This document shows positions 2,093 to 63,140 of a stretch of DNA of 64,000 bases, piece after piece. The notes below the pieces were generated by a model. The model saw only the letters and a program-made list of their open reading frames with translations. It did no database searches and was not told where the DNA came from. This stretch comes from Vibrio rhizosphaerae (GTDB taxonomy: Bacteria; Pseudomonadota; Gammaproteobacteria; Enterobacterales; Vibrionaceae): positions 620,001-684,000 of the forward strand of contig NZ_AP024903.1 in the NCBI RefSeq assembly GCF_024347095.1, read 5' to 3'. A program made the translations under genes and the position numbers. How positions within the stretch are numbered: position 1 is the first letter of the stretch; each line of letters opens with the position of its first letter.

Positions 2093-4054
2093 TTGAGTGA
2101 CATGGCAAAAAATCTAATATTATGGCTGGTTATCGCCGTTGTCTTAATGTCCGTATTTCAGAGCTTTGGCCCTGGAGATAATAGTGGCAGGGCGGTTGAC
2201 TATACCACTTTTGTAAAAGAAGTGGGTCAGGGGCAAATTCAGGAAGCTCAATTCAAAGATAGTGAGATTACCTTTACTCGCCGAGGCAGTAGCTCTCGTT
2301 ACGTCACATACATGCCAGTATACGATCAGAAGTTACTTGATGATCTGATCAATCAGAATGTCAAAGTTCAGGGGACGCCTCCTGAAGAACAAAGCTTGCT
2401 AGGCACAATATTCATTTCTTGGTTCCCCATGATTTTATTAATCGGGGTCTGGATCTTCTTTATGCGTCAGATGCAGGGCGGTGGTGGCAAAGGTGCCATG
2501 TCGTTCGGTAAGAGCAAAGCTCGCATGATGACTGAAGAGCAAATTAAAACCACATTTGGTGATGTTGCCGGTTGTGATGAAGCAAAAGAAGATGTTAAAG
2601 AGCTGGTCGATTATCTGCGTGATCCGAGCCGTTTCCAGAAACTGGGTGGGAAAATACCAACTGGGGTTTTGATGGTTGGTCCTCCGGGTACAGGTAAGAC
2701 CCTATTAGCCAAGGCGATTGCCGGAGAGGCGAAAGTACCGTTTTTTACGATCTCAGGTTCAGATTTTGTCGAAATGTTTGTCGGGGTCGGTGCTTCCCGG
2801 GTCAGAGATATGTTTGAGCAGGCCAAGAAAGCTTCTCCTTGTATTATCTTCATTGATGAAATTGATGCTGTCGGACGTCAACGTGGTGCTGGTGTCGGCG
2901 GTGGACACGATGAACGTGAACAAACATTGAACCAAATGCTGGTTGAAATGGATGGTTTTGAAGGGCATGAAGGCATCATTGTTATTGCGGCGACTAACCG
3001 CCCGGATGTTTTAGACCCAGCATTACTGCGTCCCGGACGTTTTGACCGTCAGGTTGTGGTTGGGCTACCGGATATCCGTGGTCGTGAACAGATTCTGAAA
3101 GTTCACATGCGTAAAGTTCCGACGTCTAACGATGTTAATGCTTCACTGATTGCCCGTGGTACGCCAGGTTTCTCTGGTGCCGATTTGGCTAACTTAGTCA
3201 ATGAAGCTGCGTTGTTTGCCGCACGGGGAAACAAACGCAATGTCTCGATGGTTGAGTTTGAACTCGCGAAAGACAAAATCATGATGGGTGCCGAACGGCG
3301 TTCGATGGTTATGTCAGAAGATACAAAAGCTTCAACCGCATATCATGAAGCTGGACACGCGATTGTCGGTCGTTTAGTACCTGAGCATGATCCCGTTTAT
3401 AAAGTGTCGATTATTCCGCGTGGACGTGCTTTAGGGGTTACGATGTACCTACCGGAGCAAGATCGCATTAGTATGTCTCGGCAACATCTGGAATCAATGA
3501 TTTCCAGTCTCTATGGCGGACGTCTGGCGGAAGAATTAATTTATGGTGCAGACAAAGTATCAACCGGGGCATCAAATGATATTGAGCGTGCAACAGATAT
3601 TGCTCGTAAGATGGTGACCCAGTGGGGATTTTCCGAAAAATTAGGTCCGCTTCTATATACCGAAGAAGAGGGTGAAGTTTTTCTGGGACGAAGTGTTACG
3701 AAAACCAAACACATGTCTGACGATACCGCGAAACTGATCGATGATGAAATTCGTAAAATTATTGATCGAAATTACGAGAGAGCGAAAAAGATCCTGTTGG
3801 ATAATATGGATATCATGCATTCGATGAAAGATGCATTGATGAAATATGAGACCATTGATGCAGGTCAGATTGATGACTTGATGGATCGTAAGCCTGAGAT
3901 CCGGGAGCCTGCGGGTTGGGTTGAACAGGAGCTTGCAGCTCAAGAAAAAGCGAAGTCTGCTGAAGCCTCTCGTGATGATACACCTGAAGAAACGGCAAAT
4001 GACGCTTCGCAGGATAAATCAGATAATGATGATCAAAGTGGACGAACTGAGTAA
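2093..4054 (+). CDS. ftsH: ATP-dependent zinc metalloprotease FtsH
   Basis: FtsH is a hexameric inner-membrane AAA+ protease that degrades unassembled membrane proteins and short-lived regulators such as LpxC. The 653-residue product has two N-terminal membrane segments around a periplasmic domain (TM1 in the first 25 residues; TM2 [17 protein letters not shown]), Walker A GPPGTGKT near residue 197, Walker [12 protein letters not shown], the second region of homology ([20 protein letters not shown]) and the zinc site HEAGH near residue 418. The TTG at 2093 is preferred over the ATG at 2102 because GAGG sits 8 nt upstream of it. The last 40 residues are low-complexity and acidic. A terminator follows. 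Confidence 0.97.
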
Positions 4055-61327: not shown

Positions 61328-61993
61328 TTATATGAAATGATGGGCGAGAATCTGTGCGGTAAATTGAGTGCGCAGATAAAATCCGCGTGGGCGTGTGCGG
61401 ATTCTTTTTCCGTTATAGCCATAAGCTTCGGTTTTGACGCGACCGTTGGCCGCCTTGGGTCGTAATTGAAGGATCTCTCCATGTCTGGCGGTGACTTGTT
61501 CTATCTGGCCTAACACGATGAATTCCATCAGTTCTTCCCAGTCATTTTTGAGTTGTACTTCTTGTTGCGGTGAAGGGCTCCATAGCAGGGGGGCACCGAC
61601 TTTTCTGTCAGCGATGGGAATCTCTCGTTCTCCTTCTACCGGGATCCAGAGAACGCGCGACAGTTTGTTCCTGACATGACTGTTTTCCCAGGTCAGCCCC
61701 TGCACACCTGTTAACGGTGCCACGGAGACAAATGTTGTTTCAAGTGGTTTGCCGACAGCACTAACAGGAATACTTTTTAGCTCAATGCCCAGTTTTTCAA
61801 AATCCTGTTGGGGTTTGCTGCCTGCCGTTGCACCCAAGTGCCATTCGAGAAGTTGACCGACCCAACCTTTATCCTTTTTCAGATCCAGAGGCACTTTCAT
61901 CCCGGCAGTGGCTGCAAGTTCAGCAAAACTGAATCCGGCTATCTCCCAAGCTCTTTCAAGTAATTCTCTTTCTGTCTGTGGTTCTGGTCTCAT
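61328..61993 (-). CDS. mutH: DNA mismatch repair endonuclease MutH
   Basis: MutH nicks the unmethylated strand at hemimethylated GATC sites when activated by MutL. The 221-residue product has the catalytic D-x6-E-x-K in [33 protein letters not shown] and the C-terminal [20 protein letters not shown]. The ATG at 61993 ([12 protein letters not shown]) matches family N-termini. Its presence implies Dam-directed mismatch repair. It is divergent from rppH; the 628-bp gap carries DnaA boxes. Confidence 0.96.
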
Positions 61994-62119
61994 AAGATCT
62001 TTCAGATATTCGCAGTCGAAGGGCAACAGTTTAGGATGTAACGAGCACTAGTTTAACAGATGAAATGAGAGGTCGTCATGGTTTGTCTCAAAGAGCTACT
62101 CTGTGATGATTTCCTCAGC

Positions 62120-62237
62120 TTATCCACAGGACGCTTGTGTATAACGATGTGTTACTTCTCTATATGGATGGATATACAGGCTTTTTTACCGGTTTTCTAT
62201 GATTTTTTTAGTGAAATCGTTGTTGTGGTGTGGATAA
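62120..62237. promoter_or_regulatory. DnaA box cluster, candidate DARS2-type site
   Basis: Three perfect TTATNCACA boxes: TTATCCACA on the + strand (62120-62128), TTATACACA on the - strand (62136-62144) and TTATCCACA on the - strand (62229-62237). The first two face each other 7 bp apart and the third repeats the orientation of the second. E. coli DARS2, which reactivates DnaA by ADP/ATP exchange, lies between the same genes and, as I recall, has a core of the same polarity. Confidence 0.7.
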
Positions 62238-62406
62238 AAATGACAGTGGTTGATCTTTGTGCAATGTGATTCCGGGATTGATCCTGATGAATCAAATGAT
62301 GATCATCCGAGTCGTGGCTGTTGAACTAATTGATTGATAAGTAAGGTCTAGTTGGATTTTATCTCGTGTTGTTGAAAAGTTTGTTATGAGAAGAACATCG
62401 AATTAT

Positions 62407-62444
62407 TGTGAGTAATCTATCACTTTTTCACATAGTTACTCACA
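62407..62444. repeat. inverted repeat of DnaA-box-like arms
   Basis: TGTGAGTAA (62407-62415) and TTACTCACA (62436-62444) are perfect 9-bp arms with a 20-bp spacer. Each arm is one base from the DnaA box consensus TTATNCACA. Confidence 0.6.
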
Positions 62445-62621
62445 GAAAAGGTGAATAAGATCAGCCAAATTTGTCATCTTGTGTTAATAAGTTATTCATC
62501 GGCAGTGGCATCTCAAATTTAGTCCACGTCGTATTTTTGTTTTTATTGTCAATGGATATTTGCTACATCTGGGGATCTATGAAAAAATCAGGAGAAGTTA
62601 AATTTTATTAGAGGTTTGCCA

Positions 62622-63140
62622 GTGATAGATGGCGATGGTTATCGACTCAATGTCGGTATTGTAATCTGCAACAACCATGGTCAGGTATTCTGGGCGAAAC
62701 GATACGGACAACATTCTTGGCAATTCCCTCAGGGCGGCATTGATCATGGTGAAACACCAGAACAAGCCATGTTCAGAGAGTTGTACGAAGAGGTTGGTTT
62801 AACAAAAACGGATGTGAAGGTCATTGGTTCCAGTCGTCATTGGTTAAAGTATAAATTGCCCAAACGATTGGTACGCTGGGATTCTCAACCTGTCTGTATT
62901 GGACAAAAACAGAAATGGTTTCTTCTGCGTTTAGAGTGTCATGAGTCTAAAATCAACATGCAGCGTGGAGTAACCCCTGAATTTGATGGTTGGCGTTGGG
63001 TGAGTTATTGGTATCCGGTAAGGCAGGTCGTTTCATTTAAACGCGATGTTTATCGGCGGGCGATGAAAGAGTTTGCCTCGATAGCGATGCCATTTAAAGC
63101 ACGGAAAGTAAAAGGTAAACGGAAAGGGAAAAGAGGATAA
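62622..63140 (+). CDS. rppH: RNA pyrophosphohydrolase RppH
   Basis: RppH removes pyrophosphate from 5' triphosphate RNA ends and starts RNase E decay. The 172-residue product has the Nudix box [23 protein letters not shown], the [25 protein letters not shown] segment, and [26 protein letters not shown]. The GTG at 62622 (MIDGDGYR) aligns with E. coli RppH and has GAGG 7 nt upstream, so it is preferred over a TTG two codons earlier. ptsP follows after 2 bp, the usual operon. Confidence 0.95.

Follow-up and report, generated by a model that had tools for sequence, protein, structure and literature searches.

The three DnaA boxes found between mutH and rppH in Vibrio rhizosphaerae raise the question of whether this gap holds a DnaA-reactivating site of the DARS2 type and, if so, which of its boxes form the reactivating core. 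The window analysed here is a stretch of 64,000 nucleotides from chromosome 1, and positions without a prefix refer to it; C1 and C2 denote whole-chromosome coordinates. The gap is bounded on the left by mutH, on the reverse strand (61328 to ~61993; Pfam MutH, 1.9e-36), for which we chose the ATG at 61993 as start, an earlier TTG at 62026 being present in the same open reading frame (ORF). On the right lies rppH, on the forward strand (62622-63140; GTG start; Pfam NUDIX, 4.4e-25), named by its synteny with E. coli and relatives. Across six close species, the rppH leader (62530-62622) hardly varies (88/93 columns invariant).

The three perfect boxes that the first-pass annotation had placed within 118 bp, in the orientations it gave, are indeed exact in the sequence and inside the gap: TTATCCACA at 62120-62128 on the forward strand, TTATACACA at 62136-62144 on the reverse strand and TTATCCACA at 62229-62237 on the reverse strand. 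Exact TTATNCACA sites number 185 (95 + 90) in the 4,557,402 bp of the genome, and at this density a cluster of three within 118 bp should occur ~0.0018 times in the whole genome. The window holds 6 such sites against 2.45 expected in shuffles, a number reached by 6 of 100 shuffles. Overall, the window shows no strong enrichment in DnaA boxes; it is the clustering of the trio that exceeds chance.

E. coli DARS2 lies in the same intergenic region, as the annotation had also stated, both by gene order in MG1655 (where a gap containing the small gene ygdT separates rppH from mutH) and by its placement in the literature consulted. According to the descriptions available, boxes I and II of a DARS core stand head to head, and box III acts through box II. 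We located the core boxes of E. coli DARS2 from the sequence using the geometry of DARS1, which reads TTATCCACT-N5-TGTGGATAA-N3-TGTGTATTA. On the rppH side of the E. coli gap, TTCTTCACA act CTATCCACA gaaaa GGTGAATAA corresponds to III-N3-II-N5-I. Counted from the start of this box III, two IHF-consensus sites with 1 mismatch each were found at -87 and -71, with 3 bp between them, and a Fis consensus without mismatch at -125. Translocation tests are described as placing IBS1 and IBS2, 3 bp apart, between the core and FBS2-3, and the double boxes given for DnaA ChIP-seq are gTTCTTCACAactCTATCCACAg for DARS2 and cTAATACACAtggTTATCCACAg for DARS1 (PMC11317965, Table 1). The rppH-side placement is supported since the IHF and Fis positions and the III-II double boxes of PMC11317965 agree with it. 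A reading in which the E. coli counterpart of the 62229 box serves as core box III, with TTATCCACA...CTGGGATAA on the mutH side as boxes I-II, was dropped because the rppH-side cluster matches both DARS1 read on the reverse strand and the ChIP-seq table. In one published test, boxes IV-VI of E. coli DARS2 were dispensable.

The E. coli ygdT frame (48 residues; L001, 2331-2477) starts just before one DARS2 accessory box and ends past the other; it may be a spurious ORF, given that it spans both. By eye, a LexA-like CTGT-N8-ACAG sequence was also seen between the E. coli counterparts of the 62120 and 62229 boxes. When the gap was searched against E. coli genomes by blastn, 22 weak matches of ~30 bases were obtained (E about 8); among the five listed, two fell on ygdT, at the counterpart of 62229-62258, and three elsewhere.

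The window contains the same core arrangement, as TTTTTCACA tag TTACTCACA gaaaa GGTGAATAA, that is, III-N3-II-N5-I. Box III (TTTTTCACA) occupies 62424-62432 on the forward strand; box II (TTACTCACA) follows in the same orientation 3 bp further on, at 62436-62444, and faces box I (TTATTCACC; 62450-62458, reverse strand) head to head across 5 bp. These boxes are degenerate, II and I carrying one mismatch each. The geometry and its conservation point to 62424-62458, outside the flagged coordinates and ~190 bases from the flagged boxes, as the likely core of a DARS2 ortholog. Around core box III, TGTGAGTAA (62407-62415) and TTACTCACA (62436-62444) form an inverted repeat seen only in the window and five sister species, and in this same clade a GATC (62459-62462) directly follows box I.

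The conservation of the core was monitored in the loci of RppH relatives, of which the best 80 of 589 were taken (35 from Vibrionaceae and 45 from other groups). The core expression occurs in all 35 named Vibrionaceae loci, one of which (L007) starts inside box III at a contig end, and in 32/45 of the others; the 13 loci lacking it belong to Providencia (three), Photorhabdus, Proteus, Morganella, Pseudoalteromonas (five), Rheinheimera (one) and Aliidiomarina. Since Photorhabdus luminescens is among the species of Fig. 8 in PMC8682772, the expression may be overly stringent, or the site may have another location. Among six close species, 35/35 core columns are invariant, compared to 389/601 for the whole gap. 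When 62020-62640 was compared by BLAST with 24 other genomes of the genus, 19 matched 62424-62458 exactly or nearly so, the other recurrent match being the start of rppH; none of the 24 gave a match at the flagged boxes. Moreover, across the taxonomic order, a pattern for the core was found in 146/295 genomes, the reversed control giving 0 among the rows listed. All 21 genus genomes of that draw have at least one match, several have two and the window's genome has one; two are expected if the pattern catches DARS1-type sites too.

Spacings were counted in 39 Vibrionaceae rows (the window, five sister loci and 33 of the 35 named loci, L007 and L033 having too little sequence ahead of the core) and in 33 other rows (E. 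coli and the 32 named loci with the core). These rows were selected for having the core, so that all box and spacing counts are conditional on it. Near the core, a box-like sequence on the reverse strand, TGTTAATAA (62482-62490), begins 58 bp from the core start; TGTTKATAA with at most 1 mismatch was found at this place in 30/39 Vibrionaceae rows and 33/33 other rows.

The three flagged boxes are not equally conserved. Allowing at most 1 mismatch, the 62120 box is retained in 39/39 Vibrionaceae rows and 31/33 other core-bearing rows, and the 62229 box in 36/39 and 31/33, respectively; both exceptions among the 33 are Rheinheimera. The 62136 box is perfect in 1/39 Vibrionaceae rows, the window itself, and reaches 1 mismatch or fewer in 2/39; the five closest species found have no counterpart of it. 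Among six close species, 9/9 columns are invariant in the 62120 box, 9/9 in the 62229 box and 4/9 in the 62136 box. The spacing from the 62120 to the 62229 box is 108-109 bp in the window's clade and 118-120 bp in the other Vibrionaceae rows keeping both, and a pair of this type was found in 134/148 genus genomes (reversed control, 1 genome). A query with 62060-62330 matched 27/227 genus genomes, the window's own included: five sisters, 77-81% identical to the window over this stretch, matched over most of it, and in the remaining genomes the match fell mostly around 62224-62271, on the 62229 box and the sequence beside it. The trio is composed of two conserved accessory boxes and one box peculiar to the window's genome. 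Its box number, spacing and orientation, whose conservation among close Vibrio species the first-pass annotation had made the touchstone of its proposal, are not kept, because the 62136 box is perfect in that single row. By position, the 62229 box, which adjoins the candidate Fis-site region, probably corresponds to box V of E. coli DARS2, and the 62120 box to the E. coli box at ChIP-seq peak 2969501, for which the label "box VI" would be apt.

Between these accessory boxes and the core, the window has an IHF consensus site without mismatch (TAATTGATTGATA; 62327-62339, forward strand) and a Fis-consensus candidate with 1 mismatch (TGACAGTGGTTGATC; 62241-62255) where E. coli has CGGCATTGGTTGATC. 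The distance from the 62229 box to the IHF site is 98 bp, equal to that in E. coli. Relative to the core, the 62229-type box, the Fis-like site and the IHF site lie at -185, -173 and -87 in E. coli and at -195, -183 and -97 in the window. Compared to E. coli, the accessory module is internally unchanged and sits 10 bp further from the core, close to one turn of the helix. More widely, the 62229-type box was found at -190 to -195 in the Vibrionaceae rows keeping it and at -185 in 29/31 other rows. Of the conserved spacing and IHF/Fis sites that were to be looked for, the spacing between the 62229 box, the Fis-like site and the IHF site is kept, but an IHF consensus with at most 1 mismatch occurs in just 22/39 Vibrionaceae rows and 6/33 others, and the Fis evidence is weak, because one-mismatch sites of this loose motif are common (10 were listed for the part of the window that was scanned, and 7 for the E. 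coli part). A wider conservation of IBS1-2 and FBS2-3 is stated by Kasho 2014 (PMC4245941). In the translocations of E. coli DARS2 described there, some 10-bp shifts were less harmful than 5-bp shifts, and moving IBS1-2 10 bp towards the core was as bad as moving it 5. The genome encodes Fis, with 78% identity over a 76-residue piece of the E. coli protein.

Given that mnmG (C1:3493244-3495124) is adjoined by a GATC-rich, origin-like sequence, we place oriC1 near 3,495.3 kb. The distance from the DARS2 core to oriC is then 0.198 of the chromosome, against 0.206 in E. coli. A DARS1 candidate, with head-to-head boxes across N5 ~430 bp upstream of the uvrB ORF (C1:1182609-1182631; L145, 4110-4132), lies at 0.340, against 0.329 for E. 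coli DARS1. The two sites thus have nearly the relative oriC distances of E. coli, though both are on one chromosome arm. Relative distance has been described as conserved among E. coli strains, and a DARS2 placed equally far away on the opposite arm as behaving like wild type (PMC5010248).

Overall, the locus resembles E. coli DARS2 in its gene neighbours, its III-N3-II-N5-I core, its accessory boxes at the 62229 and 62120 places, the 98 bp to the IHF site and the distance to oriC. It differs in the 10-bp displacement of the core, in the spacing of the 62120- and 62229-type boxes (109 bp, against 119 bp in E. coli), in the box sequences, in having one clear IHF site and no clear second where E. 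coli has two, and in the extra 62136 box. With E. coli DARS1 it shares the I-N5-II-N3-III core geometry; however, DARS1 lies upstream of uvrB, the accounts of it at hand describe no IHF/Fis module, and the window's genome has its own DARS1 candidate. DARS-like sequences have been noted in V. cholerae (PMC6090056, citing Fujimitsu 2009), which also figures as Vch in the legend of Fig. 8 of PMC8682772; the V. cholerae DARS2 is described as DARS-like and at the same location (PMC6090056; PMC8682772), a likeness that holds at the level of these descriptions.

Synteny, core geometry, conservation, module spacing, oriC distance and the presence of a Fis gene are the basis on which we consider that the mutH-rppH gap of chromosome 1 very probably holds the ortholog of E. 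coli DARS2, with its core at 62424-62458, and that it reactivates DnaA as in E. coli. The proposal of a DARS2-type site in this gap therefore holds for the locus, by its neighbours and its core, and not for the flagged boxes as the core. Each biochemical step, and the role of each protein at the site, would be as in E. coli. ADP-DnaA would bind boxes I and II, which face each other, together with the tandem box III (62424-62458), and IHF would bend the DNA at ~62327-62339, bringing the module of Fis site and 62229 box to the core. ADP would then leave DnaA, and the released apo-DnaA would take up ATP, so that the ATP-DnaA level increases before oriC1 initiates. At high ATP-DnaA, oligomerisation from the 62229 box would displace Fis and turn the site off.

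Other readings of the same boxes were weighed against this one. That the trio at 62120, 62136 and 62229 is itself the reactivating core, as first suggested, finds some appeal in three exact boxes with two of them head to head, but we regard it as highly improbable: the facing boxes are 7 bp apart instead of the 5 bp of a DARS core, and the 62136 box that makes up this pair is the one perfect in a single row of 39, with 4/9 invariant columns. Mere titration of DnaA could likewise draw on several strong boxes placed close together; yet it needs no fixed orientation or spacing, and the most conserved cluster is the one formed of weak boxes, which leaves this reading barely credible.

The boxes might instead allow DnaA to control the transcription of mutH or rppH, with no part in DnaA reactivation. 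They lie upstream of both divergent genes, and DnaA is described as regulating promoters, but the head-to-head DARS geometry is kept both here and at uvrB, and we hold this explanation to be unlikely. A sigma-70 promoter scan (1 site against 2.6 in shuffles) was uninformative for or against promoters. Promoter control and DnaA reactivation could also coexist at the gap.

A search for TTATCCAC-N{1,31}-GTGGATAA in 11 genomes yielded 46 pairs: 31 with N7, the spacing that belongs to DARS, 11 with N12, each genome having one, and 4 with N23. The other 28 spacings gave none in these 11 genomes, and the reversed control gave one pair (in G068). In the window's genome, the N7 spacing occurs at the uvrB site, at C1:1598426 and at a site on chromosome 2. 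The second of these (C1:1598426-1598448; L003, 2927-2949) has exact head-to-head boxes across N5 and lies 3' of uvrC- and pgsA-like ORFs; no third box was seen at N3, and similar pairs exist in sister genomes. The N12 pair (C1:3172783-3172810; L266, 1984-2011) is located between a queG-like ORF and tRNA-Gly genes adjoining an orn-like ORF, which is the gene context of E. coli datA; its distance to oriC, calculated by hand, is 0.092 of the chromosome versus ~0.10 for datA.

At the chromosome 2 pair, a third box-like sequence stands at N3, so that C2:627611-627645 (L146, around 3612-3646) reads TTATCCACA-N5-AGTGGATAA-N3-TTGGGATAA, with the I-N5-II-N3-III geometry and 2 mismatches in box III. This 35-bp pattern was found in 145/154 genus genomes, once per genome (reversed control, 0 among the rows listed), and in 2/102 genomes from other genera of the family. 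In 16 genomes behind named loci, a pair of the same spacer type occurs in species including V. furnissii and V. pectenicida; a single N7 pair, with a different spacer, was found in each of Photobacterium obscurum and Aliivibrio finisterrensis, and no N7 pair in Enterovibrio calviensis. In 10 genomes examined, chosen for having the pair, the gene downstream of the element encodes the same FAD oxidoreductase, which is 53-90% identical in 9/9 others. The assignment to chromosome 2 applies to the window's genome; in G131 the element-bearing contig is 4.07 Mb long. By our reading, C2 begins with ParA/ParB-like ORFs. A turn of its GC skew between the 468- and 520-kb samples would put the element ~0.81 of the way along the arm, counted from the presumed ori2.

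We tentatively propose, as a possibility that is more doubtful than not, that Vibrio has an additional DARS core on its second chromosome, and that the supply of ATP-DnaA to chromosome 1 may partly depend on chromosome 2 copy number. Chromosome 2 would in this way signal back to chromosome 1, against the direction of the crtS signal, which is known to run from chromosome 1 to chromosome 2. The element may alternatively be an operator of the FAD oxidoreductase gene. As reported in PMC3937223, blocking chromosome II replication left the timing and rate of chromosome I initiation undisturbed, and this result, as far as that account goes, counts against an importance of the chromosome 2 element. 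In the literature searched, which left subscription papers mostly outside, no report of such a chromosome 2 site was found.

DARS-like sites in V. cholerae are already published, and what the window's site adds is a likely core. This matters for the choice of mutation targets, as experiments on the flagged boxes would miss that core by ~190 bp. Moreover, the chromosome 2 element makes a possible DnaA-mediated talk-back to chromosome 1 testable.
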